Shown here: positions 2,943 through 49,484 of the stretch, piece by piece
How the letters are laid out: each line of letters starts with the position of its first letter
Position numbering within the stretch: position 1 is the first letter of the stretch
NCBI GenBank assembly: GCA_944389195.1
Contig: CALXLM010000026.1
Location: 1 to 64,000, forward strand
DNA: 64,000 bases
Source: an uncultured Opitutales bacterium
GTDB lineage: Bacteria > Verrucomicrobiota > Verrucomicrobiia > Opitutales > Intestinicryptomonadaceae
Direction: 5' to 3'
Made by a program: the position numbers and the translations under genes
The notes under the pieces: model-generated
What the model was told of the DNA's origin: nothing
Databases searched by the model: none
What the model saw: the letters and a program-made list of their open reading frames with translations, nothing else

Positions 2943-3468
2943 CGTTGTATTTGAATCTTTCAATGTCGTATCCCCGTTTTTTGGCAAGTTTGAGAATTTT
3001 GTCGATAACGTTTTGGGGCAGAGTTTTTGTGCGCGCCAAAATCCATAAATAGTCACTGTCGGAGCTGCCCACAAGAGACCACGAATAGTCGTCGGCCAAC
3101 TCCAATATGTAATAATCGGCGTAAAACGGCCAAAAGAAAGAAACCCTGATTTTTGAATTTTGAGACGGATCGGGAACGTATGCGCTCCCTTCGGCCGAAC
3201 GAATTTTGCCGTCGGCGCCGACGCCGCTGTTGACCACCCTTATCCGGCCGTCCCCCTTCAGCTCGTAAACGGCGCGCGAATCCGCAACGCCCTTTTGAAA
3301 AGAATTCTCAAAACGGGCTATTTCAAACCATAGCCCGGCATATTTTTTTAAATCTACGCCGTCCTTTGTCGAAATTTCGGGCTTTGACGCGCATGAGGCG
3401 GCCGCAAAAGCCAAAAATAAGGCAAAAGCTGCGTTGGCGATTACTTTAAAGATTATTTTTTTGCTCAT
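2932..3468 (-). CDS. blc: Outer-membrane lipocalin lipoprotein (Blc-like)
   Basis: This is a 178-residue lipoprotein. A hydrophobic signal ends in AAASC, so Cys26 is the probable lipidation site. The lipocalin hallmark GLWFEIARF follows at the start of the barrel, and the strand order (YELKGDGRIRV, YYILELADDYSWSLVG) matches bacterial Blc, which binds lysophospholipids or fatty acids in the outer membrane. The N-terminus overlaps the end of uvsE by 23 bp. A GTG at 3474 is an alternative start two codons earlier. Overlaps with both neighbours indicate a three-gene transcription unit: uvsE, lipocalin, epimerase. Confidence 0.88.
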   Translation of the reverse strand: MSKKIIFKVIANAAFALFLAFAAASCASKPEISTKDGVDLKKYAGLWFEIARFENSFQKGVADSRAVYELKGDGRIRVVNSGVGADGKIRSAEGSAYVPDPSQNSKIRVSFFWPFYADYYILELADDYSWSLVGSSDSDYLWILARTKTLPQNVIDKILKLAKKRGYDIERFKYNGAK

Positions 3469-4366
3469 TTTCACTCAATATTCTTTCAATAGCAAAATCC
3501 TTAGCCTTCGCCTCGATTTGGCATACGTAGGGAATGCCGTAATACGGAGGCATATCCCGACAGTAGTCGGCGTGCGAACGCGGAGCCGCAGACGAGGCGC
3601 TTTCGGCGTAATGAAATACGGGCTTAAATCCGCCCCAAGTTTCGGCCGCCGAAAAAAAGGCAACATCATCAGGTTCACCGTCGCCATTGAGCTTGTGGTG
3701 TAAAAAGTCGAAAGTCAACGGAATTCCGTATTTCGGCAGAAAGCGAATCAGTTTCGAAACTTTCCACGGGCCCCTGTCCTCGTTTTCAATCGCAATACGG
3801 GCGCGCGCAGAAGGCGAAAGCATGCCAAGCCCGTCCTCAAAATCCGAAACGAAGGTTCCGCGGCGCGGGTCGGAATTTATATGGACGTTTATCGGAGAGC
3901 TAAAATCCGCAGGAGCGCCCATAATATCCAGGATACGCGCGTTGAAGTTTATCTCCCCTGCGGAATTTTCCCTTGTTTTCCTGTCTGCCGACGCAAACAC
4001 CACAAACTGCGATGGATGCATAGAAAGCCCGACGCCGAGAGACTTTGCGGCATTTCCCGCCGATTTCAAAACCTCCGATATTTCGCCCGACAACGGCAGC
4101 GCATCGAGCGAAAGCCCGAGCCTGCCGAGCGTCAAAAGCGGGAAAATGTCGGAAGGCAGGCGGTAGTGCGCTATGCCGCTTTTTGCGCAAAACTTAACCG
4201 TTTCAAGCGCCACGCGCGCATTGTTGAGGCATATTTGCGCAAGTTTTTCCAAGGCCCCGCCGCGTCCGAGGCTCTCAAACGAGGCCGCCGTCATTTTCCT
4301 ATATGAAATTCCGCTTTGCTTTAGAGCCAAGGATATGCAGCACAAACCTAATTCCGGGCGATTCAT
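3446..4366 (-). CDS. uvsE: UV damage endonuclease UvsE/UVDE
   Basis: This is a 306-residue TIM-barrel endonuclease that nicks DNA 5' of UV photoproducts and other lesions. Family signatures include LGLCCISLAL at the N-terminus, AHYRLPSDIFPLLT, LSMHPSQFVVFAS, INVHINSD and LTFDFLHHKLN; several of these carry the metal-binding His, Glu and Asp residues. The frame is open to an ATG at 4420, but the conserved N-terminus begins at MNRPELGLC, so I prefer 4366. The gene is divergent from fba, with about 105 bp between the two starts. It heads the uvsE, lipocalin, epimerase run. Confidence 0.88.
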   Translation of the reverse strand: MNRPELGLCCISLALKQSGISYRKMTAASFESLGRGGALEKLAQICLNNARVALETVKFCAKSGIAHYRLPSDIFPLLTLGRLGLSLDALPLSGEISEVLKSAGNAAKSLGVGLSMHPSQFVVFASADRKTRENSAGEINFNARILDIMGAPADFSSPINVHINSDPRRGTFVSDFEDGLGMLSPSARARIAIENEDRGPWKVSKLIRFLPKYGIPLTFDFLHHKLNGDGEPDDVAFFSAAETWGGFKPVFHYAESASSAAPRSHADYCRDMPPYYGIPYVCQIEAKAKDFAIERILSENEQKNNL

Positions 4367-37581: not shown

Positions 37582-38166
37582 ATGGTACTAGGTACAAGAT
37601 ATCCAACATTAGCGTTTCACACGGGCGGCGCGGGACAAGCCGCCGACGGGATTCCTCCCCAACCATTCGAAACGTTTTGCTACGATTCCGCCCTACTGCA
37701 GGCGAAAATAGAAAACTTCAACGTGATTCCGTACACGTCTGTTTTGCCGAAAGAGCTTTTCGGCAGAATATATCCGGTCGATAAAGTCGCAAAGTATTTC
37801 AAACACGGCGCCGTGCTTGAAGTGATAATGGCCGGAAACGGCGCGAAAAGCTCTGACCACCGCGCCATAGCAACTGGAGTGGGCGTCTGCTGGGGCAAGG
37901 ATTCCAAAGGCGAACTAATCGGTGGTTGGGCGGCCGAATATGTGGAATACTTCGACACTTGGATTGACGACGACATCGCGAAGGCTCACTGCGAAATGTG
38001 GCTCAACAAGTCGCTCAACCACGAACTCGACATACGCGGCGTGCAAAAACACAGCGACTTCCAAATCTTCCACAATTTTATCAATATCGAACAGCCGTTC
38101 GGATATTGTTTAACAGCTTTAGGATTCCTCAACTTTGAGTTTGCCGAACCGGCGGCCGTAAAATAA
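37582..38166 (+). CDS. aaxB: Pyruvoyl-dependent arginine decarboxylase (AaxB-like)
   Basis: This is a 194-residue proenzyme that converts arginine to agmatine and CO2, consuming a proton. It should cleave itself between Thr52 and Ser53 (in [15 protein letters not shown]), turning the Ser into the pyruvoyl group. Cleavage would give chains of 52 and about 142 residues. Long stretches ([56 protein letters not shown]) match my memory of chlamydial AaxB almost exactly, with the same cleavage numbering. AAGGAGA lies 5 bases before the ATG. The antiporter gene follows after 9 bp. In chlamydiae an outer-membrane porin AaxA precedes AaxB; none is present here. Confidence 0.95.
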
Positions 38167-38175
38167 GGAGTTAAC

Positions 38176-39651
38176 ATGTCCGATTCTAACGGAAGCGCGG
38201 GAAAAACGGCAGCGGTTCCCGCGCCATCTAAAAAACTCGGAGTCATCGGGCTTGCGGCAATTGTCGTAAGCTCGATGATAGGAGGCGGCATTTACAGCCT
38301 TCCCCAAAATATGGCCGCAGGCGCGGCAGTAGGGGCAGTAATTATCGCTTGGATAATTACGGGAGTGGGTATGTATTTCGTTGCAAACACCTTCCGCACT
38401 TTGTCTGCGGCCCGCCCGAATCTTACCGCAGGCATATACATGTACAGCAAAGAGGGTTTCGGCAACTACGTCGGATTCACTATTGCATGGGGGTACTGGC
38501 TATGCCAAATATGCGGAAACGTCGGATACGCCGTAATTACAATGGATTCACTCAACTACTTTTTCCCCGGATGGTTTTCCGGCGGAAACAACTGGGAATC
38601 CATCGTGGGCGGTTCGCTTTTGATATGGATCTTCAACTTCGTGGTTCTGGCGGGAGTAAAACAGGCTTCCATAATCAACTTGGTGGGCACTGTATGCAAG
38701 CTGTTGCCGCTGGCGGTATTCCTTTTGGTTTTGCTGTTCGTTTTCCAATGGGACAAATTTACATTCGACTTCTGGGGGCACCTTACCTCTGGCGGCGAAA
38801 CGAATCTCGGAGGATTGGGAAAGCAAATTAAAGGAACGATGCTCGTGACTCTCTGGGCTTTCATAGGAATTGAAGGCGCGGTAGTGCTGTCAGGACGGGC
38901 ACGCTCGCAGAACGACGTCGGGAAGGCTACGATACTCGGCTACGGCGGAGGCCTGGCCATATTTGTGCTTCTTTCAATTCTACCGTTCGGATTCATGACG
39001 CAAGCCCAACTTGCAACCGTGCCAAATCCGTCAACCGCGGGAGTTTTGGAGAAGATCGTAGGTGAATGGGGCAGCTGGCTGATGAACGTAGGCGTCATCA
39101 TATCTGTTCTCGCAAGCTGGCTGGCGTGGACTATGATTACGGCTGAAATGCCATACGCAGCCGCAAAAGACGGCACATTCCCGAGCTTTTTCGGCCGCGA
39201 AAACAAATACGGGGCGCCAAGCTTTTCCCTTTGGATAACGAGCTCTCTCATGCAACTGGCAATGCTTATGGTTTATTTTTCAAACAACGCTTGGAACACA
39301 ATGCTTAGCATTACGGGGGTAATGGTTCTGCCGCCGTATCTTGCAAGCACGGCGTATCTATGGAAGATAAGCGAAAAAGGCCAACTCGGCAGCGTTGTTC
39401 CGAATATTCGGATCAGCCGTAAATTCGCGCTTGTTTCGGGAATATTCGGATCGGCTTACGCAGTCTGGCTCATATATGCGGCCGGTGTAAGTTATCTTTT
39501 GGATTCAGTGATATTCCTCGCTCTCGGCATACCGTTCTATGTGTGGGCCAGAAGGGAAAACAGCCAAAAGGCCTTCACAAAAACGGAAGCAGCCATAGCG
39601 TCGATTCTCGTATTGATAGCCTTGTACGGATTGTGGCGTATGCTATCTTAA
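38176..39651 (+). CDS. aaxC: Arginine/agmatine antiporter (AaxC-like, APC superfamily)
   Basis: This is a 491-residue inner-membrane protein with about 12 membrane segments. The first helix holds VVSSMIGGGIYSLPQNMA, the GSG-type substrate-binding break of arginine and basic-amino-acid antiporters. IEGAVVLSGRARSQNDVG in helix 6 is another family mark. With AaxB it would exchange external arginine for the agmatine made inside, exporting one proton equivalent per cycle. GGAG precedes the ATG, and the gap to aaxB is 9 bp. A terminator follows, so aaxBC is a two-gene unit. Confidence 0.93.
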   Translation: MSDSNGSAGKTAAVPAPSKKLGVIGLAAIVVSSMIGGGIYSLPQNMAAGAAVGAVIIAWIITGVGMYFVANTFRTLSAARPNLTAGIYMYSKEGFGNYVGFTIAWGYWLCQICGNVGYAVITMDSLNYFFPGWFSGGNNWESIVGGSLLIWIFNFVVLAGVKQASIINLVGTVCKLLPLAVFLLVLLFVFQWDKFTFDFWGHLTSGGETNLGGLGKQIKGTMLVTLWAFIGIEGAVVLSGRARSQNDVGKATILGYGGGLAIFVLLSILPFGFMTQAQLATVPNPSTAGVLEKIVGEWGSWLMNVGVIISVLASWLAWTMITAEMPYAAAKDGTFPSFFGRENKYGAPSFSLWITSSLMQLAMLMVYFSNNAWNTMLSITGVMVLPPYLASTAYLWKISEKGQLGSVVPNIRISRKFALVSGIFGSAYAVWLIYAAGVSYLLDSVIFLALGIPFYVWARRENSQKAFTKTEAAIASILVLIALYGLWRMLS

Positions 39652-39843: not shown

Positions 39844-41670
39844 TTAGAAGCCGTCCGGAAGCGCCCTCGATTCGGCGTCGCCCGCGATTTCCTCTACCGC
39901 GTCTTCGACCACCTTTACGCCCTCAAAAGACTTGCGGACGCGCGATCTTACCGACACCCTCCCCGACTCTGCCTCTTTGCGCCCGACGACAAACATGTGC
40001 GGCACCTTCTCGGTTTCGGCCTTTCTGATTTTAGCGCCGAGCTTCTCGGCAGATGCGTCCATCGAAACGCGCAGCCCTCTTTTCTTGAGTTTTTTAAAGA
40101 CCTCGTCGGCGAACGGAAGAACCTCGTCGGTAAGAGTAATCACCCTGACCTGCTCAGGAGCCAGCCATGTCGGGAAATTGCCCGCAAAATGCTCTATTAA
40201 CACTCCCGTAAAACGCTCGAGAGACCCAAACGGAGCGCGGTGGATCATTATCGGGCGGTGCGGCTTGTTGTCCTGTCCGATATAAGAAAGGTCGAACCTT
40301 TCCGGCAGATTATAATCGACCTGGACCGTGCCGAGCTGCCATTCGCGGCCGATGCAATCCTTGACCACAAAGTCGATTTTCGGGCCGTAGAATGCAGCTT
40401 CACCTATCTCCTCAGTAAACGGAACCCCAAGAGTTTTTGCGGCCTTGCGTATGGCGGCCTCGCTCTTTATCCAGTTCTCCTCAGCCCCGACATACTTGTC
40501 GCTCGAAGGATCGCGCAATGATATCCTCACCCTGTACTCCTTCATGCCGATAGTCGCAAAAACCTCGCGCACCAAATCGAGGCATCCCTGTATTTCGCCG
40601 TCAAGCTGGTCTGGGGTGCAAAATATGTGGGCGTCGTCCTGCGTAAATCCGCGCACGCGCGTCATTCCGTTCAGCTCGCCCGACTGCTCCCAGCGATACA
40701 CGTTGCCGAACTCCGCCAGGCGCACCGGAAGATCGCGGTAGGAATGCGGATCGCTCTTGAAAATCTCCACATGGAACGGGCAGTTCATGGGTTTAAGCAA
40801 AAAGCCCTCCACGTCGCCCGACTCTATTTTCGGCTCAAATTCCGCCACGGAAAGATTTTCTTCGGCCATTTTCTGGAGGTCTTCGCGCTCCACAATCGGC
40901 ACAAACTGCGACTCTTTGTAATAAGGGAAATGCCCGCTTGTCCTAAACAGCCCGAGCTTGCCTATGTGCGGGGTAAACACCTGCTGGTAGCCCTGCTCGT
41001 TGAGAAGCTCGAGAATAAAATCTTGAAGGCTTTGGCGAACTACCGCCCCTTTCGGCTTCCAAAGTATGAGGCCCTGCCCTACCCTGTCTACGATTGTGAA
41101 AAGCCCCATTTCCTTCCCTATCTTGCGGTGGTCGCGCAACTTCGCCTCTTCTGCGCACTTAAGATAGCTTTCAAGCTCTTCCTTTGAGGCGAAAGCCGTT
41201 CCGTAAATGCGTTGAAGCTGCTTATTTTTCTCATCGCCCCTATGGTACGCCCCGGCGACTGATAAAAGTTTAAAAGCCTTTATTTGACCCGTGCTTTCCA
41301 CATGCGGGCCGGCGCATAAGTCACAAAATTCACCGTTTTTATAGAATGTTATTTTTTCTCCCTCCGGTATGTCGGAAAGGCGCCCAAGCTTAAACTCCTC
41401 CTGCCCGTTTTCCCTTATTCTTGCGGCCGCGTCTTCGCGCGAAAGTTCGAATTTTTCGAACTTCTGGTTCTCCGATACGATTTTAGCCATTTCGCGCTCG
41501 ATGTTAGCCAAATCCTCCGCCGTGAATTTATGGCCGAGATCGAAATCGTAATAAAAGCCGGTGTCGGTAGCCGGGCCAATGTCGAGTTTCGCGTCCGGAA
41601 AGAGGCGCAAAACGGCCGTTGCCAAAACGTGGGAAGCGCTGTGTCTTATTTTCAGGAGATCTTCGTTCAT
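39844..41670 (-). CDS. thrS: Threonyl-tRNA synthetase without TGS domain
   Basis: This is a 608-residue class II synthetase. It begins directly with the editing domain (HSASH, His10 and His14, with the later CDLCAGPH). The catalytic core follows (MNCPFH zinc Cys; RVRGFTQDDAHIFC motif 2; APFGSLERF motif 3), then the anticodon-binding domain. The ~60-residue TGS domain usual at the N-terminus is missing. In-frame sequence upstream of the ATG meets a TAA within about 20 codons, so it is not simply mis-started. GAGG lies upstream of the ATG. TGS loss is known in some synthetases and should not stop aminoacylation. Confidence 0.94.
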   Translation of the reverse strand: MNEDLLKIRHSASHVLATAVLRLFPDAKLDIGPATDTGFYYDFDLGHKFTAEDLANIEREMAKIVSENQKFEKFELSREDAAARIRENGQEEFKLGRLSDIPEGEKITFYKNGEFCDLCAGPHVESTGQIKAFKLLSVAGAYHRGDEKNKQLQRIYGTAFASKEELESYLKCAEEAKLRDHRKIGKEMGLFTIVDRVGQGLILWKPKGAVVRQSLQDFILELLNEQGYQQVFTPHIGKLGLFRTSGHFPYYKESQFVPIVEREDLQKMAEENLSVAEFEPKIESGDVEGFLLKPMNCPFHVEIFKSDPHSYRDLPVRLAEFGNVYRWEQSGELNGMTRVRGFTQDDAHIFCTPDQLDGEIQGCLDLVREVFATIGMKEYRVRISLRDPSSDKYVGAEENWIKSEAAIRKAAKTLGVPFTEEIGEAAFYGPKIDFVVKDCIGREWQLGTVQVDYNLPERFDLSYIGQDNKPHRPIMIHRAPFGSLERFTGVLIEHFAGNFPTWLAPEQVRVITLTDEVLPFADEVFKKLKKRGLRVSMDASAEKLGAKIRKAETEKVPHMFVVGRKEAESGRVSVRSRVRKSFEGVKVVEDAVEEIAGDAESRALPDGF

Positions 41671-41833: not shown

Positions 41834-42328
41834 CTATAGGTCTATGCCCATAATGTAGTCGTTCATGAAAAAGCAGTTTCCGATAGGAAAATCTCCCCTG
41901 CCGACCTCCGACATTCCCATGCGCTTATAAAAACCCAAAGCGGCATTGTACCTGTTCACGTTTAAAATCATTCTGCATGGCGACGGGCACTCAGACTTTA
42001 CATGCTCTTGAGCCTTTTCAAAAAGGAGGCGCCCAAGTTTTCTGCCCTGAAAACGCTTGAGAAGGTATATCTTTTCAAGGTGGAAAAGAGCTTCAGACTC
42101 CCTCCTAACAGAAACATACCCGAAAGGCTCTCCGTCAAGCAGTCCGATATAATACGTATGACCCTCTTTCATCTGTTCGGCGATACTCTTTTCGGAATAC
42201 ATCCAATCGAGCATGTATTCTATCTGCGCAGGAGACAATATCTTCTCATAAGTCTGCGGAAATGCCTCGCAGCCGAGTTTGTGTATAAGCCGTATATCGG
42301 CTTCGGTGGCTTTTTTTATTTCTATCAT
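41834..42328 (-). CDS. GNAT-family N-acetyltransferase
   Basis: This is a 164-residue acetyltransferase. Acetyl-CoA-binding motif A is seen in YLLKRFQGRKLGRLLFEKA, and the late ILNVNRYNAALGFYKRMGM segment is typical of GNAT proteins acting on small molecules or protein N-termini. The frame extends to 42409 within the upstream gene, but MIEIKKATEADI at 42328 is the family-like start, 2 bp after the stop of the GH20-like gene. The substrate is unknown; its neighbour suggests an amino sugar, as inference only. Confidence 0.85.
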   Translation of the reverse strand: MIEIKKATEADIRLIHKLGCEAFPQTYEKILSPAQIEYMLDWMYSEKSIAEQMKEGHTYYIGLLDGEPFGYVSVRRESEALFHLEKIYLLKRFQGRKLGRLLFEKAQEHVKSECPSPCRMILNVNRYNAALGFYKRMGMSEVGRGDFPIGNCFFMNDYIMGIDL

Positions 42329-42330
42329 AA

Positions 42331-43860
42331 TTAAAAAATTTCCGGTTTTACGCTGCGAATTCTCGAAGACGCCTTCCATAGGCCTCCGATTTCGCAAGTC
42401 GCCGCCCAAATCTTTTCAAAATCCGACACTATGAATTTTAACGCCGTCTTCTGTGCGTCCGATTCCGTGGAGATGTCAGAACGCGCCCGGACGGCCGCCC
42501 ACTTGGCCATCGCCCCAGCAAGCGCAAATTCGGCCGCCAATACAGCCGCGTCGCGCGACTCCGGTTTTGAAGAAGCCGCCAAACCCATGGCGAAATCGGC
42601 CGCGCCCTCAATCACATCTAAATCTGCAGCCGAATATGATGAAGCCAAAGCGCGCACATCTTCTTCCGAAACGCCAAACATTCCGTCCACAAAGCGGCTG
42701 GAATCCACCCTTCCCAAGGCGCATAAGGCTCGCGCGAAATCTCCCGACGAATCGTAAAACACAATGGCATCAAGAACATTGCAAACCGCCTCTTCTGGAA
42801 CAGCCTTGCCCCACATTGAGGCTGCTGCATGCGCAATGGCGGGATACGCGGCACAAAACGGGAAAAACGCGCCGCCCCCAAACGGAACTCCAAAAATCGC
42901 GCCGGCGGCGCTAAACTTCTTGGCCGCAGCGCATGCGGCGTCTATTTTTTGCCTAACAAGGTCAAACTCCGGACAAACGGCCGCATCCATTTCCGCTGAA
43001 ACAAAAAATTTTCTGCCCTCCGCAAATGCGCTTTCGCATAGCCCGACTAAAAGCGCGTTTTCTCCGGAGGAAAATACCGGAATACCCCACTTCGGCAAAT
43101 CCGAAACTTCGGGCACCCGCAAAAGCCGCGTTTTGGCAGAATAAAGCGCTGGCGAACCGAAAGACCCGAACTCGGCGCACAATTTGGCCTCCACATCTAA
43201 GCGCTCCGAAACGTCTCCCAAGTTAAAATGGCCGCCTTCAAAATTGCGAACAACCTCCGCTGCGCATTCCCTGGCGCAAATACCCCCGGACAAATCAAAG
43301 CGGCATGCCAGCTCCATTCCCGACAGTTTGCAGCGGCGTTTCAAAACCGCTATTTTCTCTTCCGAAAACGTCCCCTTCCCCGCCCATTCCGACTCCCTCC
43401 CCCGAAACGGATAAGCGTTTGAAACGTTCAGCTCAAGCATGTTGTACTTAAACAGAGAAAGCCTGTCGGCAAGAATTCCGAGATACTCCGAAGTGGGAAC
43501 GCAGCCAAAAGACGCGTCCAACGCAAACGCCCGCACGGGTATGTCGGGATAGTCGTATATTTCGCAAAACCTGAAACCGCGGCTGTCGGCCTGCATTCCT
43601 ATTTGCCTAAGAGTTTGAAGCGCGGCCTTCGCTCCTGCGACCGATGCTGCCTCTATTGATATGCCTTCCCCGTTTATCGACAGCCTATAAGCTTCTTCAG
43701 AATCAAACCCGCCCGCATAATCCGTCTTGACGAATTTGCCGCATGCGAGGCCGTCGCCGTCTATCTGAAACTCCGCCTTCTCCCATTCCAAAAATCCGTC
43801 GCCCCAAAGAGCCTTCTTCGGAACAGGCAGAAGTTTCGGAGTGCGGAGGATATAAGCCAT
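42331..43860 (-). CDS. GH20-like (beta-hexosaminidase fold) cytoplasmic protein, catalytic pair not evident
   Basis: This is a 509-residue protein without signal peptide. Residues ~1-105 resemble the alpha/beta GH20b N-terminal domain (EAYRLSINGEGISIEAASVAG, AALQTLRQI). The TIM-barrel start IYDYPDIPVRAFALDASFG, then YLGILADRLSLFKYNMLEL, matches family 20. The segment GGHFNLGDVSERL aligns with the catalytic H-x-G-G-D-E region but lacks the Asp-Glu pair (Asp kept, Glu apparently replaced by Val). The C-terminal ~170 residues are Ala-rich and helical. It may be a pseudoenzyme or have a shifted acid residue. It is 2 bp from each neighbour. Confidence 0.65.
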   Translation of the reverse strand: MAYILRTPKLLPVPKKALWGDGFLEWEKAEFQIDGDGLACGKFVKTDYAGGFDSEEAYRLSINGEGISIEAASVAGAKAALQTLRQIGMQADSRGFRFCEIYDYPDIPVRAFALDASFGCVPTSEYLGILADRLSLFKYNMLELNVSNAYPFRGRESEWAGKGTFSEEKIAVLKRRCKLSGMELACRFDLSGGICARECAAEVVRNFEGGHFNLGDVSERLDVEAKLCAEFGSFGSPALYSAKTRLLRVPEVSDLPKWGIPVFSSGENALLVGLCESAFAEGRKFFVSAEMDAAVCPEFDLVRQKIDAACAAAKKFSAAGAIFGVPFGGGAFFPFCAAYPAIAHAAASMWGKAVPEEAVCNVLDAIVFYDSSGDFARALCALGRVDSSRFVDGMFGVSEEDVRALASSYSAADLDVIEGAADFAMGLAASSKPESRDAAVLAAEFALAGAMAKWAAVRARSDISTESDAQKTALKFIVSDFEKIWAATCEIGGLWKASSRIRSVKPEIF

Positions 43861-43862
43861 AT

Positions 43863-45089
43863 CTAAAACGTATGTACAAACAGCCCCGAACGCAATTTAG
43901 GCTCAAACCATGTACTTTTGGGCGGCATGATTTGCCCGGCGTCGGCTATGGCCATAAGCTGTCCGACGGTCGTCGGATACATCGAAAATGCCACTGCGAA
44001 TTTTCCGGAATCAACAAGCCTTTCAAGCTCCCCCGTACCCTTTATGCCGCCGACAAAATCTATGCGTTCGTCGGTGCGCGGATCCCCTATTCCTAAAACA
44101 GGTCCGAGAATTCTGTCCTGCAAGAGGGCTACATCGAGCGACGAAACCGCATCCAAGCCGTCGGTATTGCCGAAAGAAAGCATATACCATTGTCCATCAA
44201 GATACATCGAAACTTTTTTAGAAGAATCCGGAGACTTAGATTCGGTTTTCTCCACACTGCATATTTCCGAAAGTTTCTTTAGCAAAGTTTCCCGCGTATA
44301 ACCCGCCAAATCCCTCACGACCCTATTATACGGCAATATGCTCAGCTGGCCCGCGGGAAATACGACCGCCAAAAACCAGTTGTAGTCCTCGTCTCCGGTA
44401 TGGTTAGGGTTTTCAGACTTAAAATAGCGCGCGCAACGGGCATTGCTGGCGCTGCGGTGGTGCCCGTCGGCCACATAAGCGCAGGGAATGGCGCCGAATA
44501 TGGCGGTTATTTTCCCGATGACATCAGGATCGGAAATTTTCCAAACAGTGTGCCGTATGCCGTCGTCAGCTGTGAAATCAAACAGGGCGGTGTCGTCGCT
44601 TTTATCCTCGACTATTTTGTCGAGCTCCGTTCCGTCTTCGACCGTGAGAAACACTGGGCCTGTGTTCGCGCGGAGGGTCCGCGTGAGCATATAGCGGTCG
44701 TTTTCCTTGGCTTCGCGGGTTTTTTCGTGTTTTTTTATAATGTCGCGCTCGTAATCGTCGGCACTGAAGACTGCCACAAGCCCCGTTTGGGAATGACCGC
44801 CCATAATCTGCCTGTAAAGGTACATACACGGAACGTCCTCCCTCACCAGATGCCCGTCTGCGACGAGCCTGTCAAAATTCTCCTTGGCATGCCCGTAAAC
44901 CTCCTGAGAATACGGATCCGTCCCCAAAGGAAGCTCTATTTCCGAGCGCACCACCCTCATAAAACTGAGCGGTTTGCCCTCGGCCTGTTTTGCCGCCTGC
45001 TCGAAATTGACCACGTCGTAGGGAAGGCTCGCTATGTCGGCAGCCTCCCCGCATGCGGGCCTCAAACCCTTGAAAGCTTTAATTTTCAT
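43863..45089 (-). CDS. DUF1015 family protein
   Basis: This is a 408-residue cytosolic protein of the DUF1015 family. Its markers are IKAFKGLRP at the N-terminus, ASLPYDVVN, SFMRVVRSEIELP, EKTREAKENDRY and YVADGHHRSAS. The conserved His/Asp/Arg set suggests an enzyme, but no reaction is known to me. The start at 45089 (MKIKAFKG) has AAAGG upstream and fits the family; an earlier ATG at 45110 is less likely. It is the first of three genes separated by 2-bp gaps. Confidence 0.88.
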   Translation of the reverse strand: MKIKAFKGLRPACGEAADIASLPYDVVNFEQAAKQAEGKPLSFMRVVRSEIELPLGTDPYSQEVYGHAKENFDRLVADGHLVREDVPCMYLYRQIMGGHSQTGLVAVFSADDYERDIIKKHEKTREAKENDRYMLTRTLRANTGPVFLTVEDGTELDKIVEDKSDDTALFDFTADDGIRHTVWKISDPDVIGKITAIFGAIPCAYVADGHHRSASNARCARYFKSENPNHTGDEDYNWFLAVVFPAGQLSILPYNRVVRDLAGYTRETLLKKLSEICSVEKTESKSPDSSKKVSMYLDGQWYMLSFGNTDGLDAVSSLDVALLQDRILGPVLGIGDPRTDERIDFVGGIKGTGELERLVDSGKFAVAFSMYPTTVGQLMAIADAGQIMPPKSTWFEPKLRSGLFVHTF

Positions 45090-45185: not shown

Positions 45186-46022
45186 ATGAAAGCTCAAATT
45201 CCAAATTCCAGAAAAGGCGGTTGCCTGTTCAAGCTAATAAAACTCTTTGTATTGGTGGCGGTAATACTGTGCGTCGCCATTTATTTCAGCCTCGGTTTAA
45301 TTGCAGATTACGCGCTGAAAACCGTGACATCAGGAACCGGAATAGAAGCCGGGGTTTCGTCGGTATCGCTCGGCATAACAGACCAAAAGGTTCAAATAAA
45401 AAATTTCTTTATAACAAACCCGCCGAATTTCAAGAAATGCGACGCCATTGCGTTTAAAGAGGCCCTGTTTGACGCCGGCATAACATTATCGGACGTCGTC
45501 GCAAAAAGGCTCATAGTTATAGACGAAATAAAAGTCGTGGGTCTTTCCATGAACATGGACATAAAGACCGCATCCGGGCTTTCCGCCCTTACGACGCTAC
45601 CGCAGTCGAATATATCGGAAATACAAAACACCCTTATGGGTAAATTGGGCGGAGGCCAGACCAAACAGACCGAAAGCGCAGCAGAACCCTCCGAAGCGTC
45701 GCAAGATTGGAAAATAATAATAAAGAAAATCGTTTTTGACAACGGCGAGATCTCGGGTTCGGTGAACGGGAAAAGCCTAAAAATAAACATACCGTCGTTC
45801 ACCCTCGAAAATCTTGGAACGTCCAAGGGTGGCGAAACTCCGACGGAACTCATGGCCGATATCGTAGGCCAGCTTGCGAAAATCGGGACTTCCAACCTTG
45901 TGAAATCGGCAATCAAGGGCGGTCTCGACGCCGGAGAAAGCGGTGCTGAATCCACGGAATCGGCAGTAGGAGGAGCGGCAAAAGCCGTCGGGAACACGCT
46001 AAAAAGCCTGTTTGGAAATTAA
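45186..46022 (+). CDS. AsmA-like membrane-anchored protein
   Basis: This is a 278-residue protein with one N-terminal membrane segment (about 13-37, LFKLIKLFVLVAVILCVAIYF) and a periplasmic beta-rich domain (VSSVSLGITDQKVQIKNFFI, KIVFDNGEISGSVNGKSLKI). This layout resembles the AsmA/YhdP-like families, which are involved in envelope lipid homeostasis. The C-terminus is Gly/Ala/Ser-rich. The start at 45186 has AAAGG directly upstream; the frame from 45147 has no such site. It is divergent from DUF1015. Confidence 0.7.
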   Translation: MKAQIPNSRKGGCLFKLIKLFVLVAVILCVAIYFSLGLIADYALKTVTSGTGIEAGVSSVSLGITDQKVQIKNFFITNPPNFKKCDAIAFKEALFDAGITLSDVVAKRLIVIDEIKVVGLSMNMDIKTASGLSALTTLPQSNISEIQNTLMGKLGGGQTKQTESAAEPSEASQDWKIIIKKIVFDNGEISGSVNGKSLKINIPSFTLENLGTSKGGETPTELMADIVGQLAKIGTSNLVKSAIKGGLDAGESGAESTESAVGGAAKAVGNTLKSLFGN

Positions 46023-46132: not shown

Positions 46133-47488
46133 TTACGGAAGAAATTCCTTTTTATAGTCGTAGAGGGAACGGACATATTTGTCGGCCTCAGGACAATCCG
46201 CAAAACGCATTTTTGACGGAATGTATGACAGCTCCCTGTCGGGGAAGCATATCGCTATCATTCCGAGCAGCGCCATCTCCGTAAACGGAGCCGCGTAGTT
46301 GAAATTGCCCATCGGCTGCTTGCCGGCATGGCACGCCTCAACCCATTCGCGGAACGGATTACCCGGAGATACGGAACGCGGCACCGTCTTGCCCGGAAGC
46401 TTGCCACCTTTCGAAAGCTCCTTCATGCGGGCAGCGGGCCATATGCGCGTTCCCTGTCCGTATTCGTTGGTATAAACCGTCTCCTTTGTGCCGACTATGA
46501 ATGTCGCGTTGTTATTGCGCGGATCCTTTAGGAACGCGTCTTCGACGCGCTTGATAGACTTCGGCTTTCTGCCGCCGTCGTACCAGTGCAGGCGGATTCT
46601 GTTGTTTACGCCGCACTTGTTCATGAATGTCATAACCGACGACGCTTGGCTCGGCCAGCTGTAATCGTTAAACGGCGAGGAGTTTCCCTCGATTTTTATC
46701 GGGAATCCGAGATCGAAAGCCGAATACGGAACGTCGAGGAAGTGGCATGCCATATCGCCGGCAGCTCCAGTGCCGTAGTTGCGCAAGCCCCTCCATTTAA
46801 ACGGGAGAACCGCCTCGTTGTACGGCTGGTACGGCGCCACACCCAACCAAAGCTTGTAATCCAGCGTCGAAGGTACGGGTTGACCTTCGGGCATCTGCAA
46901 ATCTCCCTGAGGCCAAATCGGGCGGTTCGTCCAAATGTATATGTCCTCTATTTCTCCCAAAACTCCGGCCTGATACCACTCTTTTATAAGCCTCCAACCC
47001 TCGTTGGTGTGCCCCTGGTTGCCCATCTGGGTTATTACGCCGGCGTTGTTTGCAAGCCTCTTAAGCTCTTCCGCCTCCCATATCGTGCGCGTGAGCGGCT
47101 TTTGGCAAAATACATGCTTGCCCTTTGCTATGGCCCATGCGGCTATCGGATAGTGCATATGGTCGGGCGTAGAGATAACGACAGCGTCGATCTGCCTGTC
47201 CATTTTGTCGAGCATGACGCGGTAGTCCCTAAATTTCGGCATCCAATCAGGAAACTTTTTAAAGTTTTGCGCGGCGCGGGCGTCGTCAACATCGCAAAGG
47301 GCGACAATTTTTGCAGATTTGCACGGAAGGAGGCTCGATATGGCCATGCCGCCGATACCGCCCACTCCCACGAGCGCCACGTTCAATTTGCCGTTTGGCC
47401 CCGGCTGCCTGCCGATACTCCAAGACGGCAACAACATAAGGCCGCCCGCGGCGGCCGTCGATTTGATGAAACTTCTACGATTTAACAT
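46133..47488 (-). CDS. Exported Gfo/Idh/MocA-family oxidoreductase (paralogue 2) with Gln in the EKP motif
   Basis: This is a 451-residue protein starting MLNRRSFIKSTAAAGGLMLL, a twin-arginine-like signal that ends without a lipobox. The Rossmann motif ALVGVGGIGG is intact. The motif that should read EKP is CQKPLT: Gln129-Lys130-Pro131. The Gln codon is CAA, one base from Glu GAA. The C-terminal domain (RNYGTGAAGDMACHFLD) is nearly the same as in paralogue 3. Substrate unknown. The Lys, the main catalytic or nicotinamide-contacting residue in the family, is retained. Confidence 0.9.
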   Translation of the reverse strand: MLNRRSFIKSTAAAGGLMLLPSWSIGRQPGPNGKLNVALVGVGGIGGMAISSLLPCKSAKIVALCDVDDARAAQNFKKFPDWMPKFRDYRVMLDKMDRQIDAVVISTPDHMHYPIAAWAIAKGKHVFCQKPLTRTIWEAEELKRLANNAGVITQMGNQGHTNEGWRLIKEWYQAGVLGEIEDIYIWTNRPIWPQGDLQMPEGQPVPSTLDYKLWLGVAPYQPYNEAVLPFKWRGLRNYGTGAAGDMACHFLDVPYSAFDLGFPIKIEGNSSPFNDYSWPSQASSVMTFMNKCGVNNRIRLHWYDGGRKPKSIKRVEDAFLKDPRNNNATFIVGTKETVYTNEYGQGTRIWPAARMKELSKGGKLPGKTVPRSVSPGNPFREWVEACHAGKQPMGNFNYAAPFTEMALLGMIAICFPDRELSYIPSKMRFADCPEADKYVRSLYDYKKEFLP

Positions 47489-47781: not shown

Positions 47782-49161
47782 CTAAAAGAATATTTTTGAC
47801 GGTAGGAACTCGTCGTTATACGCGTAAAGCGACCTTATATACTTGTCGGCCTGCGGATAATTCAGGAACGACATCGTTTTCGGATCGTAAACGAGGGGCA
47901 TGTTCGGCACGCAAATTGCGACCATGCCCAGCAGCGCCATCTCCGTAAACGGAGCCGCATAGTTGAAGTTGCCCATCGGCTGCTTGCCCTCGAGACAGCA
48001 AAGAGCCCATTCCTTGTGCGGATTTCCGGGAGCTATGGAGCGCGCCACCGTTTGTTTCGGAAGCCCACCGCTTTTGGCAATCTCTTTCATGCGGGCTGCG
48101 GGCCATATGCGCGTTCCCTGTCCGTATTCGTTGGTATAGACCGTCTCCTTTGTGCCGACTATGAACGTCGCGTTGTTGTTGCGCGGGTCGTTCAGGAATG
48201 CTTCTTCGACGCGCTTGATAGACTTCGGCTTTCTGCCGCCGTCGTACCAATGCAGGCGGATTTCGCCGTTTGCGCCGCAATCGTTGTCGAACGTCATCAC
48301 CGACGACGCCTGGCTCGGCCAGCTATAGCTGTTAAATGGAGTTGAATTTGCCACAACCTTCTGGGGGAATCCGAGATCGAAAGCCGAATACGGAACATCG
48401 AGGAAGTGGCATGCCATATCGCCGGCAGCTCCAGTGCCGTAGTTGCGCAAGCCCCTCCATTTAAACGGAAGAACCGCCTTATTGTATGGCTGGTAAGGCG
48501 CCACGCCCAACCAAAGCTTGTAGTCCAAAGTCGAAGGCACGGGCTGTTCCGGCGGAACAGTCAAATTACCCTGGGGCCAAATCGGGCGGTTCGTCCAAAT
48601 GTATATGTCTTCTATTTCGCCGATAATCCCGGCCTGGTACCACTCTTTTATAAGTCTCCAACCCTCGTTGGTGTGCCCCTGGTTGCCCATCTGGGTTATT
48701 ACGCCTGCGTCGGCGGCGAGCCTTTTAAGCTCCTCCGCTTCCCATATCGTGCGTGTGAGCGGTTTTTCGCAATAGACATGCTTGCCGTTGGCAATCGCCC
48801 ATGCGGCTATCGGGTAGTGCATATGGTCGGGCGTTGCTATCGCCACTGCGTCGATGCGGTCTCCAAGCTTATCGAACATAACGCGGTAATCGCGGAAACG
48901 GGGAACTGCGGGATACTCGTTATACGCTTTTTTTGCGCGGTCGTCGTCAACATCGCAAAATGCGACGAATTTAACCTGCGGGACGTTTCTCAACGCCTGA
49001 ATGACCGCATATCCGCGGCCGCCGCAACCTACAAGGGCGACTTTAAGTAAGTCGTTGGGACCCGATTTCTTTTCCGCAAAGGCGGAAGAACGGCCTCCCA
49101 TGAACATTGCGGCGCTGCCGAGCAACGCCGAATTTTTTAGAAACTGCCTTCTGTTGAACAT
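47782..49161 (-). CDS. Exported Gfo/Idh/MocA-family oxidoreductase (paralogue 3)
   Basis: This is a 459-residue protein starting MFNRRQFLKNSALLGSAAMF, a twin-arginine-like signal with a probable cleavage near SSAFAEKK. The Rossmann motif ALVGCGGRG and an intact CEKPLTRTIWEA follow. The start at 49161 matches the paralogues; the open frame to 49209 is not used. It is a near neighbour of paralogue 2, and part of the two genes is almost identical in DNA sequence. The substrate is probably a sugar or cyclitol, as inference from the family. Confidence 0.9.
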   Translation of the reverse strand: MFNRRQFLKNSALLGSAAMFMGGRSSAFAEKKSGPNDLLKVALVGCGGRGYAVIQALRNVPQVKFVAFCDVDDDRAKKAYNEYPAVPRFRDYRVMFDKLGDRIDAVAIATPDHMHYPIAAWAIANGKHVYCEKPLTRTIWEAEELKRLAADAGVITQMGNQGHTNEGWRLIKEWYQAGIIGEIEDIYIWTNRPIWPQGNLTVPPEQPVPSTLDYKLWLGVAPYQPYNKAVLPFKWRGLRNYGTGAAGDMACHFLDVPYSAFDLGFPQKVVANSTPFNSYSWPSQASSVMTFDNDCGANGEIRLHWYDGGRKPKSIKRVEEAFLNDPRNNNATFIVGTKETVYTNEYGQGTRIWPAARMKEIAKSGGLPKQTVARSIAPGNPHKEWALCCLEGKQPMGNFNYAAPFTEMALLGMVAICVPNMPLVYDPKTMSFLNYPQADKYIRSLYAYNDEFLPSKIFF

Positions 49162-49484
49162 AGTTTTTAGTTTTACCTTTTTATTTTTCCAAAAATGGAG
49201 GAAACACAACCACCGATCTTATATCGGGCGAACTACGCTACTCCCCCACTTTTTCAACCATTCAAAAAATATCTCAAAATTAGTCAAATGTTTTTATGCG
49301 AAATTTATGCGAAAATTTCGCCCGATTAAGTTTGGCATATATAAATTAAAAAAAAATAATACTCAAAATTAATAAAAAGGCTTGATATAACCTAAAAAAT
49401 GCTGATTTTATAATATTGGATCCGCCGCTGTTTCGCACGACGCGGAAATAGTGTGGGTTGCAACCTCCAAAAAATGGGAGTTCT
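49162..49484. other. Divergent intergenic region with a perfect -10 box
   Basis: The 49250-49420 part is very AT-rich. TATAAT at 49409-49414 is a consensus -10 for a rightward transcript, but no -35 lies at 16-18 bp. GGTTGCAACC, a 10-bp palindrome, and CTCC, which can pair with the SD of the next gene, lie in the putative leader (about 49447-49482). Confidence 0.4.

Follow-up and report, generated by a model that had tools for sequence, protein, structure and literature searches.

What is the function of three minus-strand genes packed almost end to end in an uncultured Opitutales bacterium, when one of them encodes a DUF1015 protein, another a protein related to GH20 hexosaminidases and the third a GNAT acetyltransferase? 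The window analysed here is a stretch of 64,000 nucleotides (assembly GCA_944389195.1, contig CALXLM010000026.1, positions 1 to 64,000), which lies in contig C26 of a 2.37-Mb genome (G000), and the genes are distributed as follows:

43863-45089, minus strand: DUF1015 (PF06245) protein of 408 amino acids, assigned by Pfam and predicted structure
42331-43860, minus strand: GH20-like (GH20-derived) protein of 509 amino acids, assigned by the Pfam match of its domain 2 and by alignment
41834-42328, minus strand: GNAT acetyltransferase of 164 amino acids, assigned by Pfam PF13673

The intergenic gaps are of exactly 2 bp each (43861-43862 and 42329-42330), as expected of an operon, and no signal-peptide-like N-terminus is visible by inspection in the DUF1015, GH20-like or GNAT proteins. 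On both points the initial annotation, which had placed the GH20-type protein in the cytosol, agrees with what is found. The DUF1015 protein belongs to PF06245, with 336.4 bits over residues 3-320 (curated cut-off 25.8), and the GNAT to PF13673, with 54.3 bits (cut-off 23.6). Searches over openly licensed papers found no reaction assigned to DUF1015. The answer favoured here, which taken as a whole we hold to be probable, is a SerK-like DUF1015 protein accompanied by a GH20 pseudoenzyme and a passenger GNAT, of which the first two may well function independently of each other. What the data show directly is the layout of the genes, the predicted fold, the motifs, the neighbourhoods, the lost site and the coding constraint; the reaction, its direction and any partnership are proposals drawn from them. 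The DUF1015 protein is a strong candidate for an enzyme of the SerK kind acting on phosphoserine.

The AlphaFold model of the DUF1015 protein shows a predicted local distance difference test (pLDDT) of 95.1 and a predicted template modelling score (pTM) of 0.90. In Foldseek, the nine PDB matches with E <= 0.001 are all SerK (5x0 entries), its P. furiosus homologue 1vk1, or SbnI. VIA-align superposes the model on nine SerK and SbnI chains, which have 232-254 residues, with Z 11.2-13.2, 211-225 aligned residues and a root-mean-square deviation of 4.0-6.4 A, and no other chain among 996 reached Z 2. In most rows the match spans approximately residues 88 to 408 of the model, and the N-terminal residues, approximately 1-87, are extra. 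An alignment of 57 DUF1015 sequences from many phyla (the window protein and 56 of 80 named loci) contains three motifs that resemble those of SerK:

44724-44729, minus strand: H121-E122, invariant in 57/57, resembling the SerK PHE with E30, an equivalence based on motif and order and not on coordinates
44454-44468, minus strand: D208-G-H-H-R212, invariant in 57/57, identical to the SerK DGHHR
43911-43925, minus strand: P389-P-K-S-T393, with P390, K391 and T393 invariant in 57/57, resembling the SerK SPKTT

The order HE, DGHHR and PK[ST]T is the same in both families, hhalign aligns the two DGHHR boxes with each other and PPKST with SPKTT, and several SerK complexes were solved with E30 mutated (E30Q and E30A entries). 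DUF1015 would thus be a bacterial protein distantly related to SerK and SbnI, the free serine kinases with a ParB fold. It is predicted to bind nucleotide through the DGHHR box and may move phosphate between the nucleotide and serine or O-phosphoserine, with E122 as the probable catalytic residue; according to the model, it most likely makes or consumes O-phosphoserine.

The genomic neighbourhood of DUF1015 points in the same direction. When SerA- and SerC-like genes were searched by tblastn in the fetched stretches around the 80 named loci, a SerA-like gene was found in 26, a SerC-like gene in 25, either of them in 29 and both in 22, and in 27 loci such a gene lies no more than 2.5 kb from DUF1015 on the same strand. 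Clustering of the same loci by blastp gives 25 SerA-like and 23 SerC-like genes, and none of the 18 GH20-centred control loci contains either. NCBIfam models name the representatives as two proteins like 3-phosphoglycerate dehydrogenase (below the model cut-off), one SerC (over the cut-off) and one class V aminotransferase. Record titles place positive loci in groups that include Planctomycetota, Ignavibacteria-type Melioribacteraceae, Acidobacteria, Elusimicrobiales, Spirochaetes, Gemmatimonadetes, Clostridia, Bacteroidales and Anaerolineae. In Lutispora saccharofermentans (L145), a T-box leader at 3455-3649 is upstream of serC-serA-DUF1015, and a passage of PMC11316588 gives the Porphyromonas gene order as serC, a gene for an NAD(P)-binding protein and DUF1015. 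According to an excerpt of PMC5120207, the neighbours of serK in Desulfurococcales are likewise genes for 3-phosphoglycerate dehydrogenase and aminotransferase. Fold and neighbours together point to serine or phosphoserine, and not to amino sugars.

Co-occurrence was examined across the class of G055 (147 genomes). DUF1015 is present in 119, SerC over the cut-off in 85 and both in 78 (Fisher p 0.0002, the genomes not being independent), and in 19 genomes the two genes are 3 kb or less apart. SerB (TIGR00338) is over the cut-off in none of the 147, other phosphatase families not having been searched there. A section of PMC9026213 counts 450 gut genomes, from diverse Firmicutes, in which SerA and SerC are present and four known phosphoserine phosphatases are all absent, and similar serine-pathway gaps with a missing SerB are listed in a part of PMC7311316. 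In bacteria where DUF1015 is adjacent to serA and serC and no SerB is recognised, its natural direction may be from phosphoserine to serine. In this same class the DUF1015 matches form two groups, one with high and one with lower scores, which sometimes occur in the same genome, and two subfamilies may exist.

The GH20-like protein is a different case. Pfam covers only its domain 2 (PF02838, residues 51-104, 35.0 bits against a cut-off of 26.1), and the catalytic domain PF00728 gives no score. PF00728 matches 15 of the 18 alignment members; the window copy is one of the three that do not match, and from their sequences we infer that the remaining two are those of G004 and G008. At the corresponding position nine relatives have a full-length orthologue whose Asp-Glu pair is intact. 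The intact family orthologues have 570-588 amino acids and NIGGDEPWELG-type motifs, and they may act on amino sugars. The loss affects the site below, whereas a second region is conserved:

43210-43215, minus strand: D216-V217, which align with the catalytic Asp-Glu in the intact orthologues
43549-43860, minus strand: N-terminal region with GH20 domain 2 (residues 1-104), conserved, identity 0.58-0.71 among the three pseudoenzymes

In the alignment the catalytic pair reads D-V in the window copy, Q-N in G004 and V-L in G008, and D-E in 9/9 intact orthologues, which bears out the earlier remark that the pair is not evident. All seven active-site motif blocks examined are changed or deleted in these three copies, and the replacements differ between species. 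The nine intact orthologues share 153 invariant columns (15 N-terminal, 114 in the barrel and 24 C-terminal), of which the window copy retains 14, 34 and 17, the G004 copy 13, 29 and 19, and the G008 copy 14, 37 and 13, respectively. Pairwise identity among the three is 0.24-0.25 in the barrel core and 0.47-0.52 in the C-terminal part, while the mean identity of eight intact copies is 0.40 in the N-terminal part, 0.60 in the barrel core and 0.44 in the C-terminal part. Since intact pairs at like DUF1015 distances reach an N-terminal identity of up to 0.61, the N-terminal part appears about as constrained as before and the barrel released. Domain 2 and the C-terminal helical part are retained, and the catalytic barrel is degenerated. 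In the GH20 tree the three copies form one clade (100/100), a grouping that long branches could favour, and they have deletions in common; the three species do not come together in the DUF1015 tree (3 changes), whose resolution is poor. All the sequence tests made agree that the GH20-like protein is catalytically dead, a pseudoenzyme formed in place. Its ancestor at this locus would have been a cytosolic hexosaminidase whose active site disappeared through shared deletions and through substitutions, and the product would now be non-catalytic and kept for its N- and C-terminal parts.

Two other explanations of this gene have to be weighed. It could be a decaying pseudogene carried by the operon and without protein function, in line with the low barrel identity and with three family genomes (G002, G005 and G011) that show DUF1015 without a GH20-type neighbour. 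However, the frames are open over 478-509 codons in the three pseudoenzyme species, and in the window copy each of the five other frames contains 8-16 stops, so the GH20-like frame is not a chance one. Third codon positions vary more than first and second positions in all regions of the three genes, a comparison used in place of the ratio of nonsynonymous (dN) to synonymous (dS) change because synonymous sites are saturated in most pairs (a rough NG86 estimate for G000-G008 gives dN 0.47 and dS 2.39). Together with the high N-terminal identity and the 13 or 14 of 15 invariant N-terminal residues retained, this makes decay quite unlikely. Alternatively, the protein could still act on carbohydrate through a rebuilt active site. 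The protein retains domain 2 and the start of the barrel, and intact-type GH20 genes with PF00728 are found elsewhere (two in the window genome and one in each of G004 and G008), which would leave this copy free to diverge. Nevertheless, with all seven blocks altered, replacements specific to each species and the barrel core as the least conserved part, we consider a rebuilt site very unlikely. The preferred description remains that of a pseudoenzyme.

Conservation of the unit was followed in 19 genomes of the family, the window genome included. DUF1015 is directly followed by the GH20-type gene in 13/19, the two being separated or overlapping by a few bases; in this count the GH20-type gene of G013 runs off the contig end, and the longest mechanical open reading frames overlap in G007 and G008. 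Besides the three genomes with DUF1015 but no GH20-type neighbour, neither gene was matched in G010, G017 and G018, of which G017 and G018 are incomplete. G010, from the same genus, is 95% complete in a single contig and gave no match in any of the family or protein searches, SerA included; it is perhaps divergent, masked or misplaced. A further 16 loci with GH20 relatives (L044-L046 and L048-L060), one from the genus of the window (G011) and the others from other families of the order, show no DUF1015 relative in the fetched stretch. A GNAT orthologue is present somewhere in 13/19 family genomes, but on the same strand after the pair only in four (the window, G007, G008 and G012), and in G009 it is adjacent but convergent. 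The conserved unit is therefore the DUF1015-GH20 pair and not the trio that had been proposed, and the GNAT would be a loosely attached passenger. The GNAT is PaiA-like, and its assignment as a PaiA spermidine/spermine acetyltransferase was dropped because its 57.2 bits are far under the NCBIfam equivalog cut-off of 250.

These counts also bear on the proposal of the initial annotation that the three genes handle an amino-sugar metabolite. The intact orthologues can indeed be aligned, DE pair included, with hexosaminidases of the GH20C type, and GNATs can acetylate amines. Against this, the window GH20 protein has lost its site and is a pseudoenzyme, the GNAT shows same-strand adjacency in only 4/19 genomes, and DUF1015 is SerK/SbnI-like and sits with serA and serC in many phyla. 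An amino-sugar unit is accordingly highly improbable, and we do not retain it.

A serine-linked function for DUF1015 with a pseudoenzyme partner also has observations standing against it. The TM-scores with SerK and SbnI are modest (0.32-0.37 by query length), hhalign pairs DUF1015 with SerK at E 0.00023 with a probability of only 44%, and hmmsearch of the PDB with the DUF1015 profile shows no SerK or SbnI match at E <= 10, so sequence similarity by itself would not carry the SerK claim. No SerA- or SerC-like gene was found in the fetched stretch of 51 of the 80 loci, nor in any of the 20 loci of the window's own order (L092-L111). In the class of G055, 7 of the 85 SerC-positive genomes do not contain DUF1015 and 41 DUF1015-positive genomes do not contain SerC. 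A T-box was found in one of the 11 Firmicutes DUF1015 loci scanned. COG4198 is, we assume, the same family as DUF1015. A passage of PMC2211319 places a glycine riboswitch upstream of COG4198 genes, presumed to be from Firmicutes; in the 11 Firmicutes loci no glycine riboswitch was over the cut-off, and in five of them there was none at E <= 0.5. The window genome contains SerA over the cut-off (C40), a SerC-related class V aminotransferase (C2) and ThrH over both cut-offs (C53), and therefore leaves no pathway gap for DUF1015 to fill; there the kinase direction, from serine to phosphoserine, would be at least as likely, and DUF1015 may act as a kinase or in another serine-linked role. Finally, the AlphaFold model of the GH20-like protein (pLDDT 38.6, two-sequence input) is too poor for superposition on a hexosaminidase, so the comparison of pseudoenzyme residues rests on alignments, and the partnership of this protein with DUF1015, for which adjacency is the basis, is putative.

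Some of these points would suit a non-enzymatic ParB-fold regulator that senses nucleotide or phosphoserine, with the serine genes as targets where they are adjacent and other targets elsewhere. Many DUF1015 genes are indeed away from serine genes. In passages of PMC12704722, non-enzymatic nucleoside triphosphate switches are described among ParB-fold proteins, and a 'DU1015' fusion is one of the 50 ParB-fold proteins picked for binding tests, without being named there among the binders. However, the SerK-like HE and C-terminal PK[ST]T are conserved alongside DGHHR in 57/57 sequences, the top structures are two kinases (SerK and SbnI) and not ParB clamps, and the Pfam scan of DUF1015 shows no DNA-binding domain. 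We consider such a regulator unlikely, and keep DUF1015 as a putative SerK-like enzyme. A more specific reading joins three parts: in bacteria that have SerA and SerC and no SerB, DUF1015 would supply the final reaction of serine synthesis that has been missing, passing the phosphate of O-phosphoserine to a nucleotide; elsewhere it would run in reverse as a widespread bacterial free serine kinase; and in the lineage of the window a dead hexosaminidase would have become its fixed, tightly adjacent accessory, possibly a partner or ligand-sensing subunit, which we infer only from that adjacency. This joint reading is tentative, and we would sooner expect one of its parts to fail than all of them to hold.

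The genes around the unit show the following distribution. Downstream is one gene given for context only:

39844-41670, minus strand: threonyl-tRNA synthetase (ThrRS), next gene downstream of the unit

ThrRS is also downstream of the unit in G001, G003, G007 and G008. On the other side, a plus-strand gene (45189-46022) encoding an unnamed protein without Pfam match is divergent from DUF1015 and is found beside it in many family genomes. It is followed by two tandem minus-strand genes encoding Gfo/Idh/MocA-type oxidoreductases (46133-47488 and 47782-49209) that are 74% identical, the second taken as 47782-49161; the first shows a twin-arginine translocation (TAT) signal match. On the plus strand, a gene encoding a small protein (37582-38166), without NCBIfam match at E 1e-10, is 9 bp ahead of a gene encoding a basic amino acid/polyamine antiporter (38176-39651; TIGR00905 over the cut-off). 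The small protein presumably resembles pyruvoyl-dependent arginine decarboxylase, and an acid-resistance pair is possible.

For a widespread domain of unknown function, fold, motif set and neighbourhood thus all point to serine or phosphoserine, and the GH20 gene presents the conversion of an enzyme into a pseudoenzyme at its original locus, where sister species carry the intact form. Among known systems, SerK, the ADP-dependent free serine kinase of Thermococcus and Pyrococcus (5x0b, 1vk1), has the same predicted fold as DUF1015 over nearly its whole chain, and part of each family neighbours 3-phosphoglycerate dehydrogenase and aminotransferase genes; DUF1015 differs in approximately 87 extra N-terminal residues, other insertions and an identity of 11-13%. 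DUF1015 is also widespread in bacteria, whereas SerK has no clear-cut bacterial homologues according to a statement in PMC5120207. The free serine kinase SbnI of staphyloferrin B synthesis (5uje, 6nr6) shows the same predicted fold, with Z 11.2-12.1. We take SbnI to belong to a siderophore cluster, unlike DUF1015, which sits with serA and serC or in no fixed cluster. The phosphoserine phosphatases ThrH and SerB would share the step from phosphoserine to serine if DUF1015 runs that way, but they have the HAD fold, unrelated to DUF1015, and ThrH is at another locus in the window genome. For the second gene, GH20C of Streptococcus pneumoniae (5a69) shares the arrangement of domain 2, barrel and C-terminal part with the intact orthologues, and the profile of the whole orthologue set aligns with it with the Asp-Glu pair in register; the window protein and its two congeners differ from GH20 beta-N-acetylhexosaminidases in having neither the DE pair nor the other site motifs.

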